Origin: Flavobacteriaceae bacterium 3519-10
GTDB lineage: Bacteria; Bacteroidota; Bacteroidia; Flavobacteriales; Weeksellaceae
DNA: 64,000 bases
Direction: 5' to 3'
Assembly (NCBI GenBank): GCA_000023725.1
Contig: CP001673.1
Location: 2,118,342 to 2,182,341, forward strand
A program made the position numbers and the translations under genes. The notes under the pieces are model-generated. The model saw nothing but the letters and a program-made list of their open reading frames with translations, had not been told where the DNA came from and did not search any database. This document shows, piece by piece, positions 37,017 through 42,173 of the stretch (positions are counted from its first letter, which is position 1; every line of letters begins with the position of its first letter).

Positions 37017-37784
37017 TTACTTTGCGCTGAGTCTCGCTTTAATTTCTTCGATGCTTTTTTTGGCAGAATCTTCCAGAATCAGGCTTGCACTCATATGAAT
37101 GCGCTCCGGCATCAGACTTTCGAAATGTTCGGTGCCTTCCCAGGATACTTTCTTGATTAACGCCAAGGCATCTGTACTTCTAACCGAAAGCGCAGCCAAA
37201 AATTCATCAAGTTTTGCATCCATTTCAGCAATCGTTGGAGAAACTGAATGGTAAACATCATGCTTTTCGCACCAGTTTGCGCTGCGGAAATCAGCATCAA
37301 TTGACATTGCTGCGTATGCAGAATTTCCGATTTTTCTCTCCACATATGGCCCGATAACAAAAGGTCCGATTCCCAGATTCAGTTCTGTAAGAGCCATCGC
37401 CGCATTCTCAACAGCAAAACAGTAATCTGCCGCGCAGGCAATTCCTACTCCACCACCGGTTGTTTTTCCCTGAACCCGAACGATTACCAGTTTGCCACAA
37501 TTGCGCATTGCGTTGAGCACTTTCGCAAAACCGCCAAAGAATTTCGTAGAAGCTTCAAGCTCTTCAATGGACAGAAGTTCGTCGAAGCTGGCACCGGCGC
37601 AGAAGGCTTTCTCTCCGTCAGATTTAAGTAGGATGGCCTTTACAGCTGCATCTTTTCCGGTTTGCAGAATAGTTTGGGCCAGTTTTTCCAGGATTTCACC
37701 CGGAAGAGAGTTACTTTTTGGATGTCCGAAAGTGATTTCGGCAATATTGTTCTTGATTTCGTGGTTTACAAATCCGTTGTTCAT
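37017..37784 (-). CDS. Enoyl-CoA hydratase/isomerase family protein
   Basis: The 255-residue crotonase-fold protein has the oxyanion-hole signatures GEKAFCAGASFDELLS and KTTGGGVGIACAADYCFA, and ALTELNLGIGPFVIGPYV, where the glutamate is in a catalytic position. Proximity to paaZ (about 2 kb away, same strand) suggests a role in phenylacetate degradation (paaF/paaG type), but the intervening spacer and unrelated neighbours leave this open. The ATG overlaps the stop of the upstream glycosylase gene (TAATG), implying translational coupling. Confidence 0.88.
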   Translation of the reverse strand: MNNGFVNHEIKNNIAEITFGHPKSNSLPGEILEKLAQTILQTGKDAAVKAILLKSDGEKAFCAGASFDELLSIEELEASTKFFGGFAKVLNAMRNCGKLVIVRVQGKTTGGGVGIACAADYCFAVENAAMALTELNLGIGPFVIGPYVERKIGNSAYAAMSIDADFRSANWCEKHDVYHSVSPTIAEMDAKLDEFLAALSVRSTDALALIKKVSWEGTEHFESLMPERIHMSASLILEDSAKKSIEEIKARLSAK

Positions 37785-38476
37785 TATTCTTTATTTAACG
37801 CAATTAAATATTTATCAATGTATAACTGTTTCTCCCTGCTTTTGTACTGTTGAATGTATCTTGGATGTTCCAACACTGTCAACTTACTGAAAAAATGGTT
37901 TTCACTGTTGAGTTTCTCAATGAATGCAGCATTTTTCTTTCCCAAAACAAACACTTCCGAAGTATCCAGGCCTAAACTGATATGATTCCTGATGCTTTCA
38001 ACCATGAATTTCTTTACAGCCTCAAACAGTGACTTGTCGTCGTAATAATTCGCATTCAGCCAACTTCCATTTTTTTTCTTCCTGATGATAGCCAGAGGGA
38101 ACGGCGAATTTATATAAAAATCCGCATAAAACCGCTCCGCACCACCATACTGTTCAATAACATCATAGAGATAAACCGATGAAATCTCATGCGTACGCGC
38201 GGACTTCATTTCTATCCCACATACCGACTCCAACCTTTTCGTATCCGTAAACGGAACTCCGGTAACGCCCGCGCCATGCCGGCTGGGATTGATACCAATG
38301 ATAAATTTCCTCGAACAATGATCGCTGTAAAACTTATGGTAAAAGGAAGTCATAACCTCCAGCGTTTCAGGATTATCGAAAAAAGGATTCAGGACATCAA
38401 AACCTGGCGGAAGTGTGCCGGTATATTTTAATTTTTTGTTGAATTCAATAACATTTTCGCCGAAGGATTTTTGCAT
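37784..38476 (-). CDS. SMUG2-type uracil-DNA glycosylase family protein
   Basis: The 230-residue protein carries the family motif FIIGINPSRHGAGVTGVPFTDTKRL, with GINPS matching the catalytic loop of uracil-DNA glycosylases, and the C-terminal LEHPRYIQQYKS resembling the His-Pro loop that inserts into DNA. This fits the SMUG2/DUF4918 group of Bacteroidota. It would remove uracil or related lesions from DNA. It is first in a likely operon with the enoyl-CoA hydratase and SDR genes, which have no clear functional link. Confidence 0.82.
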   Translation of the reverse strand: MQKSFGENVIEFNKKLKYTGTLPPGFDVLNPFFDNPETLEVMTSFYHKFYSDHCSRKFIIGINPSRHGAGVTGVPFTDTKRLESVCGIEMKSARTHEISSVYLYDVIEQYGGAERFYADFYINSPFPLAIIRKKKNGSWLNANYYDDKSLFEAVKKFMVESIRNHISLGLDTSEVFVLGKKNAAFIEKLNSENHFFSKLTVLEHPRYIQQYKSREKQLYIDKYLIALNKE

Positions 38477-38551
38477 AAGATTAAATTAATTCTACAAAAA
38501 TGACGGTCCACCATCCTCGCAGAGCTATAACAATTTTCGCAAATAAGATTA

Positions 38552-38618
38552 CGTAGGAATCATATCTATGTAGCTAATGTATGCCCTCCGGAAAGGCGTC
38601 CCGTAGGGACGCTATCTT
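38552..38618 (+). repeat. REP-like palindromic element R1
   Basis: It begins CGTAGGAATCATATCTATG and ends in the perfect hairpin GCGTCCC-GTA-GGGACGC (38596-38612) followed by TATCTT. It sits 7 nt beyond the stop of the transposase remnant and is nearly identical to R2. Confidence 0.85.
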
Positions 38619-38625
38619 GAATCTT

Positions 38626-39092
38626 CTATCCGTCATAAAAATCAAACAAATATTTGTCATCATTTTCAATATCGAACTTGCTCAGGAAATCCAAAATATT
38701 CTTCCCTGAAATTCCTTCGCTGGTGATGCTGAGCCTGATTTAATATATAATTACAGACATAATCCTTTTGACTTCTGGAATATGAAAAAATGCCATAACC
38801 TTCCTGCCATGAAAACTTACCACATATCAGGTTCTTCTCATTAATAAAATTTGTGGACTCTGTTTTTATAATTTAACCAATTCAGGAACGGTAATTTGAA
38901 GACTCTTATAACTAAACAAAATATGGATATGGTCTGGATTCGCATAAATCGCAAGCACTTTCTAACCTTTATTTCTAAAGATTCCACAGATGACTTCTCA
39001 ACATCATCTTTAATTGTCGCACCTATTCTGGTTTCTCTGCCTTTTGTGGCAAAAACCAATTGAAGATAGATTTGTGAATAGGTGTTTGGCAT
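38626..39092 (-). pseudogene. REP-associated tyrosine transposase (RAYT, IS200/Y1 type), degenerate
   Basis: Read on the minus strand from the ATG at 39092, the start MPNTYSQIYLQLVFATKGRE is the usual one. Motifs then appear in shifted frames: KVLAIYANPDHIHIL with the HUH pair (near 38915), ESTNFINEKNLICGKFSWQ, EGYGIFSYSRSQ, YILNQAQHHQ (with the likely catalytic-region tyrosine) and LSKFDIENDDKYLFDFYDG, ending at a TAG at 38626-38628. I count at least three frameshifts and one in-frame TAG within ~155 codons, so the gene is dead, although every conserved block is still readable. Length and order match a full RAYT. Confidence 0.88.
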
Positions 39093-39118
39093 CGCAATTA
39101 TTTTTAATGTCTTTAATA

Positions 39119-39173
39119 TAGCGTTCCTACGGAACGCATAATTTTCACCCTACATTCTTTCTACACAGATGTT
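39119..39173 (-). repeat. REP-like palindromic element R4, inverted
   Basis: It is the same family as R1-R3 in opposite orientation: hairpin GCGTTCC-TAC-GGAACGC (39121-39137), and reverse complement of the stretch at 39148-39171 gives ATCTGTGTAG then GAATGTA. It lies 26 nt upstream of the transposase start, so R1 and R4 bracket the gene. Confidence 0.75.
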
Positions 39174-39276
39174 GTTGCTATGGAACAAATATTAAACCTA
39201 TTTAAGTTAGTTAATAAACGACAACAATCTTATTGCGCCAGAATATTAATAAATCATACTAATTCGCAAGATTCCC

Positions 39277-39393
39277 CAAGAATCGTATTTGTGTAGTTTT
39301 AAAACCTGATTGCTGGAACGGCGTCCCGTAGGGGCGCTATTTTAAAATCACCTACGAACGCAAATCCCTCATAATTTTCTACACTGGTTTTGT
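39277..39393 (+). repeat. REP-like element R3 with inverted partial partner
   Basis: It has the hairpin GCGTCCC-GTA-GGGGCGC (39321-39337, one G-U pair) with the head sequence AATCGTATTTGTGTAG. It is followed at 39351-39393 by an inverted, partial copy starting CCTACGAACGC, giving a REPIN-like pair. Confidence 0.7.
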
Positions 39394-39487
39394 CCTACTA
39401 AACAAAAATAATAACAATTTAATAGGTTCACCGACTATGATCTGGATGCGCTAAAACATTAATATTTCATAACACATTGAAAAATTC

Positions 39488-39606
39488 CGTAGGAATCATA
39501 TCTGTGTAGCTGAATGTATGCCCTCCGCAACGGCGTCCCGTAGGGACGCTATCTTAAAATCAATCCTACGGAACACAAATTCTTCCTATATTATTATAGA
39601 TAGATA
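39488..39606 (+). repeat. REP-like element R2 with inverted partial partner
   Basis: CGTAGGAATCATATCTGTG then the hairpin GCGTCCC-GTA-GGGACGC (39533-39549) and TATCTT. An inverted, more degenerate copy starting CCTACGGAACAC follows at 39566. It differs from R1 at only a few positions. Confidence 0.8.
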
Positions 39607-39683
39607 TTTTTCTACGTACAATACCAGTTTACCCGAACGAACTCCTACAAAATCTGCGCGATCTGTGAAATCTCTGCGCCCCT

Positions 39684-42173
39684 TTACAAGCCGAACTGCT
39701 CAAAATGATGCGTGAAGTGCTTCCTGTGGAATAACTCCATCATCTCTTTGTTCAGTGTTCCGAAACGAGGATGGAAATGTTCCGCGTCCGGGTTCTCACG
39801 GTAGTAAATAAGATATTCCTTAAGGGTTTGCATGAGCTTTTCTTTGGCCTGAGCAAGATTCTTAAATCTGAGGGTTGGCATTTCACCTTCCGCAAGCATG
39901 GGATACTTTGCGCCGGGTCTGATCTTTTGCTCAGTGTAGATCCAGTCCTGCAGCAAATCCATTTTTTCCGCCGGAATTTCCGGGAAGTCTGAGGGATCCA
40001 GTTTACTGAAACCGTTGCGCATCACTTCTTCCAGATGCTCCACCATCATTTGCGGAGTCATTTCGCCGAACTTTCTTTCGGTGGAATCAGTTAATCCGTT
40101 CAAACGCTTCTGAATTTCCTTCGCATTCAACTCCATAAACGGCGACTGTTTCGCTACCAGTGTAAGGATCGTGGCAACACATACGATCTCATCACGCTGA
40201 TTTACAACTTCAACAAGCCACTTTACTACGCCGCTTGGGATATTGCGTCCTTTTACACCTTTGTTTATTTTCTCTTTTGCGGTAAGATAAACAGTAATGG
40301 TGTCTCCTGCGTATACAGGTTTGAAGAAACTTGCATTTTCCAATCCATAATTGGCGATTACCGGCCCTTTTTTGCCGGAAACAAACAGACCCGCTGCCGC
40401 TGAAAGGATAAAATATCCATGTGCAACGGTTTTGTCGAAGATGGTTCCGTTCAAACTTGTGGAATCAGTGTGGGCATAGAAATGATCCCAGGAGACATTG
40501 GAAAAATTAACAATATCGGCTTCGGTAACCGTCCGGCCGGCGGTTTCCAGCGAATCACCGATTTCCACCTTTTCAAAGAACTTTCTGAAAGGATGTCTGT
40601 CAGAGAAATTCTGCGTGGCACCCTGCTGGTACACCTTTGTAATGGCAGAAAGCATATCCGGTGAACCCTGAATGGCCGTTTTTTGAAGGAAGAAGTGCAG
40701 ACCGTTAAGCCCGCCCATTTCTTCGCCACCACCCGCTCTTCCCGGTCCGCCGTGCATAAGTGTAGGCAACGGTGAGCCGTGACCGGTACTTTCCTTGGCA
40801 CTGTCGCGGTTCAGGACGAAAATACGTCCGTGCTGCGAAGCCATTTTCCAGGAAGTTTCAGCGACAAATTTCTCGTCGTTGGAAACGATGGAACCCACCA
40901 AACTTCCTTTTCCGCGTTTTGCTAATGCAGCGGCTTCTTCGGCATCGCGGTATGGCATAAGCGTAGAAACAGGTCCGAACGCTTCCACATCGTGAGAGAT
41001 ATTCTTTTCGAAAGGCTTATCGTTATAAAAGATTTTCGGACTCATGAAAGATCCTGACTCGTAACTGGCATCCAGAAGTTCATGCTGCCCGTCATAGATA
41101 AGTTCGGTTTCGGCCTTAAGAAGATTAACATTTTTAAGAACTTCTTCATACTGCTGTTTACCAACTAAAGAACCCATGCGTGTCTCGCGGTTCAGCGGAT
41201 TACCTATTTTGGTCTGGTCCAAAGCTTTACCTAGGGCATTCTGAACTTCATCAACCAAATTCTCCGGCACCATAATACGGCGGATTGCTGTACATTTCTG
41301 ACCTGCCTTGGTAGTAATCTCATTGCGGACTTCCTTAATAAAGAGATCAAATTCCGGGGTACCGGGTTTTGCATCCAAGCCTAAAATGGAGCAGTTCAAT
41401 GAATCGGCTTCCATATTGAAGCGCACGGCGTTGGTTGATACAGAAGGAAGCGATTTCAATTTTTTACCCGTTCTGGCCGATCCTGTGAAAAGCACAGAAT
41501 CGCCATCCTGCACATAATCGAGCATATTTCCCGGCTCACCGCAAACCAGCTGTATGGCACCTTCAGGCAGAATTCCGCTTTCAATCATATCGGTGAAAAC
41601 CGCGTTGGTAAGGTAAGATCCCGGTGTGGCGGGCTTTACAATACTTGGAACACCTGCCAGAAGTGAAGTGGAAAGTTTTTCCATCATTCCCCATACCGGA
41701 AAGTTATACGCATTGATCTGAACCGAAATACCTTCGCTTGGCGTCAGGATATGAGTTCCGATGAACGTTCCGTTTGCTGAAATCTTCTGCGTATCACCAT
41801 CTACCCAGAACGGCGTGTTAGGCAACATCCGTTTTGCCAGACCGGAATAGGTGAAGAACGTACCGAAACCACCTTCGATGTCTACCCACGAATCAGCATG
41901 TGTTGCACCCGTCTTATAAGAAAGCTCATAATACTTCTTCTTTCTCTCCAGAAGATAAAGAGCGACCTTCTTCAGCATTTCGCCACGGTCGTAAAAGGTC
42001 ATGGACGAAAGGTTTTTATAACCAACGGTGCGTCCGTAGTCCAGCGCCTGCTGGTAATCAATACCGCCGGTATCGGAAATGGCAACCAATTCACCGTTTA
42101 CTGCGTTGTATAATGGAATTTCTTCGCCGGAACCTTCGCTCCACTGGCCGTATATATAATTTTTTAGTTTCAT
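39684..42173 (-). CDS. paaZ: PaaZ-type bifunctional aldehyde dehydrogenase/oxepin-CoA hydrolase with extra C-terminal domain
   Basis: The 829-residue protein has an aldehyde dehydrogenase domain (~1-515) with E255 (NMEADS) and the nucleophile C294 (GQKCTAIRR), then a MaoC-like hydratase domain (~525-676) with the hot-dog motif SWDHFYAHTDSTSLNGT. PaaZ opens the ring of oxepin-CoA and oxidises the resulting aldehyde in phenylacetate degradation. E. coli PaaZ has ~680 residues; here residues ~677-829 add a DinB/DUF1569-like helical domain (MTPQMMVEHLEEVM, ending FHRKHFTHHFEQFGL). No other paa genes are in the window. The gene overlaps the upstream small membrane protein by ATGA. Confidence 0.9.
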   Translation of the reverse strand: MKLKNYIYGQWSEGSGEEIPLYNAVNGELVAISDTGGIDYQQALDYGRTVGYKNLSSMTFYDRGEMLKKVALYLLERKKKYYELSYKTGATHADSWVDIEGGFGTFFTYSGLAKRMLPNTPFWVDGDTQKISANGTFIGTHILTPSEGISVQINAYNFPVWGMMEKLSTSLLAGVPSIVKPATPGSYLTNAVFTDMIESGILPEGAIQLVCGEPGNMLDYVQDGDSVLFTGSARTGKKLKSLPSVSTNAVRFNMEADSLNCSILGLDAKPGTPEFDLFIKEVRNEITTKAGQKCTAIRRIMVPENLVDEVQNALGKALDQTKIGNPLNRETRMGSLVGKQQYEEVLKNVNLLKAETELIYDGQHELLDASYESGSFMSPKIFYNDKPFEKNISHDVEAFGPVSTLMPYRDAEEAAALAKRGKGSLVGSIVSNDEKFVAETSWKMASQHGRIFVLNRDSAKESTGHGSPLPTLMHGGPGRAGGGEEMGGLNGLHFFLQKTAIQGSPDMLSAITKVYQQGATQNFSDRHPFRKFFEKVEIGDSLETAGRTVTEADIVNFSNVSWDHFYAHTDSTSLNGTIFDKTVAHGYFILSAAAGLFVSGKKGPVIANYGLENASFFKPVYAGDTITVYLTAKEKINKGVKGRNIPSGVVKWLVEVVNQRDEIVCVATILTLVAKQSPFMELNAKEIQKRLNGLTDSTERKFGEMTPQMMVEHLEEVMRNGFSKLDPSDFPEIPAEKMDLLQDWIYTEQKIRPGAKYPMLAEGEMPTLRFKNLAQAKEKLMQTLKEYLIYYRENPDAEHFHPRFGTLNKEMMELFHRKHFTHHFEQFGL

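Follow-up and report, generated by a model that had tools for sequence, protein, structure and literature searches.

The repeat cluster described here is probably, at a likelihood of roughly two in three, a REPtron-like locus in decay. Its Y1 transposase carries, in relatives, the signature of subclass 1.2, and the intact ancestor would have recognised the hairpins of the units flanking its gene and cut near their tails, the units spreading in trans. The window, meaning the whole stretch of 64,000 nucleotides that was analysed, holds four palindromic elements of about 76 nt (R1-R4) within 38546-39557, and R1 and R4, inverted relative to each other, bracket a transposase remnant. A first-pass annotation had seen here REP/REPIN-like palindromes inverted around a dead Y1 transposase gene, a picture that is borne out. 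The features of the locus are as follows.

37784 to 38476, minus strand: gene of the UDG superfamily, downstream neighbour of the remnant (PF03167, E 1.5e-13)
38546 to 38620, plus strand: unit R1, with hairpin A at 38546-38562, hairpin B at 38596-38612 and the tail TATCTT to 38618 (64.9 bits with model R1)
38626 to 39092, minus strand: dead, frameshifted Y1 transposase gene, IS200-like, with the subclass 1.2 signature in its relatives (PF01797)
39113 to 39188, minus strand: unit R4, with hairpin B at 39121-39137 and hairpin A beyond it, inverted with respect to R1 (69.9 bits)
39269 to 39345, plus strand: unit R3 (63.3 bits), its spacer matching that of a same-locus unit of genome G035
39350 to 39395, minus strand: decayed inverted partner of R3, limits drawn by eye (repeat D4 and reading of the sequence)
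39482 to 39557, plus strand: unit R2, alike to R1 in 69 of 76 columns including the spacer (70.3 bits)
39559 to 39612, minus strand: decayed inverted partner of R2, limits drawn by eye (inverted repeat I2 and repeat D3)
39684 to 42173, minus strand: paaZ, the neighbour on the other side (TIGR02278, E 5.6e-259)

The palindrome is exact at 38596 and 39533, has one mismatch at 39321 and has two at 39121 (minus strand). On both strands and with up to three mismatches, six matches were counted against 0.03 expected, and none of 100 shuffles gave six. A GCGTCCC hairpin had been ascribed to all four elements; the palindrome does recur at all of them within two mismatches, but the stem of hairpin B in R4 reads GCGTTCC/GGAACGC. 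Similarly, a shared "head" is present in near forms in R1-R4, whereas exact ATCTGTGTAG is limited to R2 and R4 (R1 has ATCTATGTAG and R3 has ATTTGTGTAG), and the stretch is the tail of hairpin A. The tail TATCTT of R1 ends 7 nt from the stop codon of the remnant (38626-38628), as annotated, and hairpin B of R4 lies 28 nt before the start codon at 39092, where 26 nt had been given for R4. R3 and R2 each stand beside an inverted partial copy, as described, in the form of the two decayed partners.

The remnant itself runs for 467 nt from 39092 to its stop codon on the minus strand, compared with 465 nt in relatives of 154 codons. Its pieces match these relatives in different frames, one reading contains five stops, and one piece scores above the cut-off of PF01797; the gene is dead, as had been supposed. 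A search of 38400-39700 against Rfam returned nothing at the gathering score, and its three matches with E of 0.12-0.88 were taken as chance.

The repeated element is a pair of direct hairpins rather than the single palindrome first proposed. Each unit opens with hairpin A (7-bp stem and 3-nt loop), which is followed by (N)ATCTGTGTAG or a close variant of it; after a spacer that varies come hairpin B, again with a 7-bp stem, and then TATCTT or a similar tail. Fifty-five units were collected from 29 loci around related genes, from the window and from two further positions in this genome. The search required the starts of A and B to lie 44-62 nt apart; 54 of the 55 units have a spacing of 47-55 nt, and one of 61. 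Both stems covary in an alignment of 40 of the 55 units, where 96.4% of cells are paired and 71 cells show double-sided changes, with neither value reached in 500 shuffles, and pairing falls to 27-47% when the partners are slid by one to three columns. Weaker shuffle measures were the pairs with a double-sided change, reached in 3 of 500 shuffles, and the pair types, reached in 96 of 500.

R1 and R2 agree in 69 of 76 columns, across hairpins and spacer alike, but their flanks are unrelated (7/50 and 12/45 identities in register). In this lineage a whole unit has therefore evidently been copied or converted, and the event ended near the limits of the unit. The likeness could be due to gene conversion. 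The spacer differs between most units, with a median score of -3 over 1485 pairs against 16 for R1/R2, and the remaining units that share a spacer are mostly orthologues or neighbours in one array. The spacers of R3 and R4 are common to G035 units at the same locus, so these two units appear to have been inherited, while the G035 unit at the place of R1 has another spacer.

The gene in the window is too broken for a test against family models, and 13 relatives without stop codons were used. All 13 match PF01797 (79.6 bits for the first member, cut-off 23), and nine pass the IS200/IS605 model NF033573 (55.1-65.0 bits, cut-off 55), with L026, L028, L038 and L044 just below that cut-off at 45.2-51.4 bits. 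None of the 13 passes the REP-associated tyrosine transposase model NF047646 (18.2-35.3 bits, cut-off 80), and the REP_Tyr_transpos model is matched weakly by all. Residues H55, H57, W96, Y116, Q120, H123 and H124 are invariant in 15 of 15 sequences, and DH[IL]H and WQ occur in 14 of them, L008 having EHVH and WG. The relatives are 154 aa long and carry the motif Y---Q--HH, not the Y---NP that is given for class 2 TnpA-Y1 proteins (PMC6006769). They fit the motifs of TnpA-Y1 subclass 1.2 in Table 1 and the text of Quentin et al. (2018; PMC6006769), namely DH[IV]H, WQ and Y---Q--HH in a protein of about 148 aa. The same table enters subclass 1.2 as "REP: no", and the text describes it as generally lacking IS200 terminal structures and as present at low copy number in Bacteroidetes (PMC6006769). 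Judged by its relatives, the protein is IS200-like with the subclass 1.2 signature, not the RAYT proper of the first-pass annotation.

Eight solved sequences were matched, all of them transposases, and the named ones are of IS200/IS605 type. With the predicted structure (mean pLDDT 85.4; 67-79 in the other four models), the TnpA proteins of ISDra2 and IS608 come first by E-value, but E. coli TnpA-REP (4er8), at rank 30 by E-value, has the highest query-normalised TM-score (0.61) of the 30 matches with E <= 0.001, and therefore the predicted fold does not settle the class. The clade of at least 60% identity is represented by one copy per genome among the matches listed, in 28 genomes, often in coexistence with other Y1 relatives. 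Among those matches there is no second copy of at least 60% identity in any genome, the copies being compared with the query and not with each other.

The surroundings of related genes were surveyed at the best 80 of 547 related loci, drawn from named genomes that include Chryseobacterium, Kaistella, Epilithonimonas, Elizabethkingia, Flavobacterium, Spirosoma, Dysgonomonas and one Ignavibacteriales MAG. A tailed hairpin oriented towards the gene was sought in 159 flanks, each up to 180 nt long, and was present in 124; the other strand gave 53 of 159, and control windows gave 64 of 3912. The gene is accompanied by a tailed hairpin on at least one side at 72 of these best 80 of 547 loci, by hairpins on both sides at 52, and by none at 8. 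Under a rule requiring two perfect stems, the counts are 30 of 159 flanks, 11 on the other strand and 3 of 3912 controls. Within the same best 80 of 547, loci whose proteins are at least 65% identical have ATCT tails in 12 of 13 cases and [CT]CTG tails in 0 of 13, and those below 60% identity have [CT]CTG tails at 50 of 67 loci, ATCT at 6 and neither at 11. The tail of the repeat evidently follows the transposase clade.

This genome contains at least six full units, four of them at the window locus, a count on which BLAST with R2 and the pattern search agree. The fifth lies at 286619-286690, accompanied by a single inverted hairpin at 286707-286723, and the sixth at 731640. Unit counts are lower bounds, since up to 32 candidates per genome were scored (32 of 1207 here). 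Units occur in 69 of 148 family genomes, ranging from 1 to at least 32. All 28 genomes whose transposase shares at least 60% identity with that of L034 across 134 residues or more have them, a figure that is partly circular because the unit model was built from the flanks of such genes. They are also present in 31 of 55 genomes with weaker or partial transposase matches, among which are this genome and G105 with their remnants, and in 10 of 65 genomes without a match, one of which holds 22. Confinement of the palindrome to this locus, which the first-pass annotation had named as speaking against its own reading, nearly holds for this genome (four of the six units), but units are dispersed in the genomes of relatives.

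Dispersed units were followed in G056, G070 and G080, where 25 of 26 lie outside ORFs of at least 100 aa and 0 of 26 between divergent ORFs, many of the 26 being the same site in two or three genomes. Inverted unit pairs 2 bp apart are found in all three genomes, and single units also occur. Spread appears to be slow, since 14 of 19 dispersed regions match another such region of a related species. At one site compared in six related species there is one hairpin in four, two in G070 and three, one of them imperfect, in G056. The difference between these states is a whole number of hairpin periods, as would be expected from cutting after each hairpin but also from recombination between direct repeats. 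Among the sites compared, no new unit insertion with a clean empty counterpart was caught; the L199 site is occupied by other sequence in related species. Dispersed units of these genomes (L195-L214) often have AATGT-like tails, compared with TATCT in those flanking transposases, and may belong to another subfamily. Arrays of units were also observed, with a period of about 108 nt in L184:3580-3978 and with alternating orientation in L146:2053-3659.

With the local gene dead, continued spread had been taken to need another copy of it, and no intact close relative was found elsewhere in this genome. The other Y1 gene (L008:1399-1851, minus strand; G000:C1:464961-465302) has an open frame of 150 aa with the motif YIKNQQTHH, and its protein is 31% identical to that of L034. 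It adjoins a different palindrome, GAACTCCGTAGGAGTTC, which has two places genome-wide (up to two mismatches), both beside this gene, and candidate units near it score only 16-18 bits. Two partial matches to PF01797, at 1845049 (over the cut-off, with one stop in the match) and at 619321 (below the cut-off), have no unit near them. Little or no continued spread of units is therefore expected in this genome.

In this lineage, four genera evidently have the gene at a common site, in the order paaZ / transposase / UDG-like gene. Of 29 genomes chosen, 26 (this genome among them) have a UDG-like gene, and the 1.5 kb before it were scored in these 26. A near-full-length transposase precedes it in six (G004, G035, G040, G048, G122 and, with one in-frame stop, G110), and a remnant in two, this genome and G105, where the last 54 residues are left between two units. 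Units without the gene are found in G114 and G140, and a lone hairpin relic in G129. In ten genomes (G011, G026, G063, G067, G085, G094, G118, G134, G137 and G143), paaZ lies within about 80 nt, with neither gene nor unit, and three (G053, G126 and G131) have other sequence at the site. In G012 a unit immediately precedes the UDG-like gene, and the transposase adjoins paaZ some 2 kb off on that contig; in G057, the last of the 26, the contig ends.

Within the best 80 of 547 loci, the gene stands between paaZ and the UDG-like gene at L118 and L123, but at L119 (Chryseobacterium formosense) it lies just past the UDG-like gene and not between the two neighbours. The other 77 have neither neighbour nearby, save for a distant aldehyde-dehydrogenase match in L136. 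The family search gave 7 of 29 loci with paaZ or both neighbours and 22 with neither nearby. G140, of the genus of the window, has only units at the paaZ-UDG site and a 69% identical gene elsewhere. The site is thus an old one in this lineage, yet over longer spans of time the gene does move. Within this lineage, the simplest reading is an old insertion followed by descent and repeated loss. Between G035 and G004 the three identities are 76, 86 and 96%, with the transposase the most diverged, and the proteins of G048, labelled as the genus of the window, are identical to those of L123 from Kaistella soli. G040 is an exception: its transposase is 79-86% identical to those of G122, G110 and G048, against 71-72 and 78-79% for the neighbouring genes, and gain by exchange is possible in single cases such as this one.

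Transfer of the block from another genus was also considered. It was suggested by pieces of paaZ that are about 96% identical to those of G035 and G004 against 73-78% with three genomes of its own genus, and it was dropped because a housekeeping protein places this genome nearest G053 (99%), which is labelled as the genus of G035 and G004. The other identities of this protein are mixed (G004 94%, G035 91%, own genus 81-95%). G053, the closest relative, has neither transposase nor unit between paaZ and the UDG-like gene and holds a tandem array instead, and therefore gives no clean empty site. This array (L261:9159-10323) has about 5.5 copies of a 211-bp repeat where the window has the transposase cluster, and the repeat contains a piece resembling the start of the UDG-like gene. 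A CACAGAT-rich stretch beside the cluster in the window (39640-39670) recurs in the array of G053 and, at the corresponding site, in G131. In both G126 (L257) and G131 (L254), a different gene starting MTENE... seems, by eye, to lie between paaZ and the UDG-like gene.

The transposases of IS608 and ISDra2 bind hairpins. By analogy with these and with TnpA-REP (PMC8266576), we infer that the transposase was the agent, that it worked through a single-stranded intermediate and that its cut sites lay near the conserved tails. The intact ancestor would have been a small HuH/Y1 endonuclease that most likely recognised the unit hairpins as single strands, A and then B in direct orientation, each with its short conserved tail. 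Cutting near these tails would have excised or copied units, which could then spread in trans. In this lineage the gene would have stayed at a single place in the chromosome as units became established at other intergenic positions, and here the gene died, leaving the units as presumed relics.

Since the gene stands without either neighbour at 22 of 29 and 77 of 80 loci, and beyond the UDG-like gene in L119, it may not always keep to one site, and whole cassettes may move too. This raises the alternative that the cassette of unit, gene and inverted unit is an insertion sequence that rarely transposes whole, with the units as its ends and the scattered units as remnants. Inverted units stand at both ends with hairpin B towards the gene, the proteins are IS200-like, and in many relatives, G140 of the same genus among them, the gene is located elsewhere. 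These other sites, together with the 4 of 13 relatives below the IS200 cut-off, led to more weight for the insertion sequence and less for the decayed REPtron-like locus. Even so, an insertion sequence is unlikely in view of the one copy of at least 60% identity per genome among the matches listed, the same site in four genera and the many unit sites without the gene.

The position of 25 of 26 dispersed units outside ORFs of at least 100 aa and of none between divergent ORFs (many of them the same site), and the period-sized differences between species, would suit a host-adopted housekeeping nuclease, with hairpins kept for other reasons, for example as 3'-end signals, and varying by slippage and recombination. 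This is also rather improbable, as tail motif and transposase clade go together, tailed hairpins are concentrated beside the gene, and most genomes examined have it broken or missing at the site, which is odd for such a role. A classical RAYT/REPIN system shares the general anatomy of inverted palindromes around a Y1 gene, dispersed copies and inverted pairs, and it can draw on the weak REP_Tyr_transpos match of 13/13 relatives and the top query-normalised TM-score of 4er8. It is very improbable, given the scores for NF047646 (0/13) and NF033573 (9/13), the motif Y---Q--HH in place of Y---NP, and a hairpin foot without GTAG, although GTAG does end the tail of hairpin A. A REPtron-like locus in decay, built around a Y1 transposase that bears the subclass 1.2 signature, is accordingly preferred as the best explanation.

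No description of the two-hairpin unit was found in the literature covered on RAYT, REPIN, REPtron, Y1 transposases and the palindromic repeats of Bacteroidetes, Flavobacterium and Chryseobacterium, and the core words of the repeat as a query returned only papers unrelated by title. The closest published group is TnpA-Y1 subclass 1.2 as set out in Table 1 and the text of PMC6006769, with the HuH motif DH[IV]H, W-Q, Y---Q--HH, about 150 aa, low copy number and occurrence in Bacteroidetes. Unlike its entry there ("REP: no"), tailed hairpins flank 72 of the best 80 of 547 related genes, a finding that bears on the published description of the subclass and not on membership. It puts forward a candidate substrate for a group of transposases that had been left without an assigned role, together with a testable prediction of hairpin and tail. 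Likewise, the paaZ-UDG site provides a series of near-complete, broken, units-only and empty states in which to follow the fate of repeats after the death of their enzyme.

With IS200/IS605 elements such as IS608 and ISDra2, the system shares its closest solved sequences and its HMM family. It differs from them in that the matches listed include one close copy per genome, four genera share the site, inverted units stand on either side and units are dispersed without the gene. TnpA-Y1 subclass 2.6, as described in PMC6006769, is similar in its occurrence in Bacteroidetes and its non-canonical hairpins near the gene, but belongs to another class, with the Y motif YIH[QN]NP and about 179 aa. RAYT/REP/REPIN systems, as described in PMC2817692 and PMC3116915, also have inverted palindromes on either side of a Y1 gene, extragenic copies dispersed elsewhere, inverted pairs, cognate pairing of gene and repeat, and orthologues of the gene that occupy one site in several species. 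In contrast to the single palindrome with a 5' GT(A/G)G head of those systems, the unit here is two direct hairpins with 3' tails; the protein fails the REP-transposase model, and copies are fewer (at least 6 in this genome, 1 to at least 32 in relatives). It is an evenly balanced proposition that subclass 1.2 Y1 transposases are the enzymes of a separate REP-like system across Bacteroidota, whose replicating unit would be about 76 nt long and hold two direct hairpins a fixed distance apart. Domestication of the RAYT kind would in that case have arisen in both class 1 and class 2, and the window would capture the terminal decay of the system at an old site.
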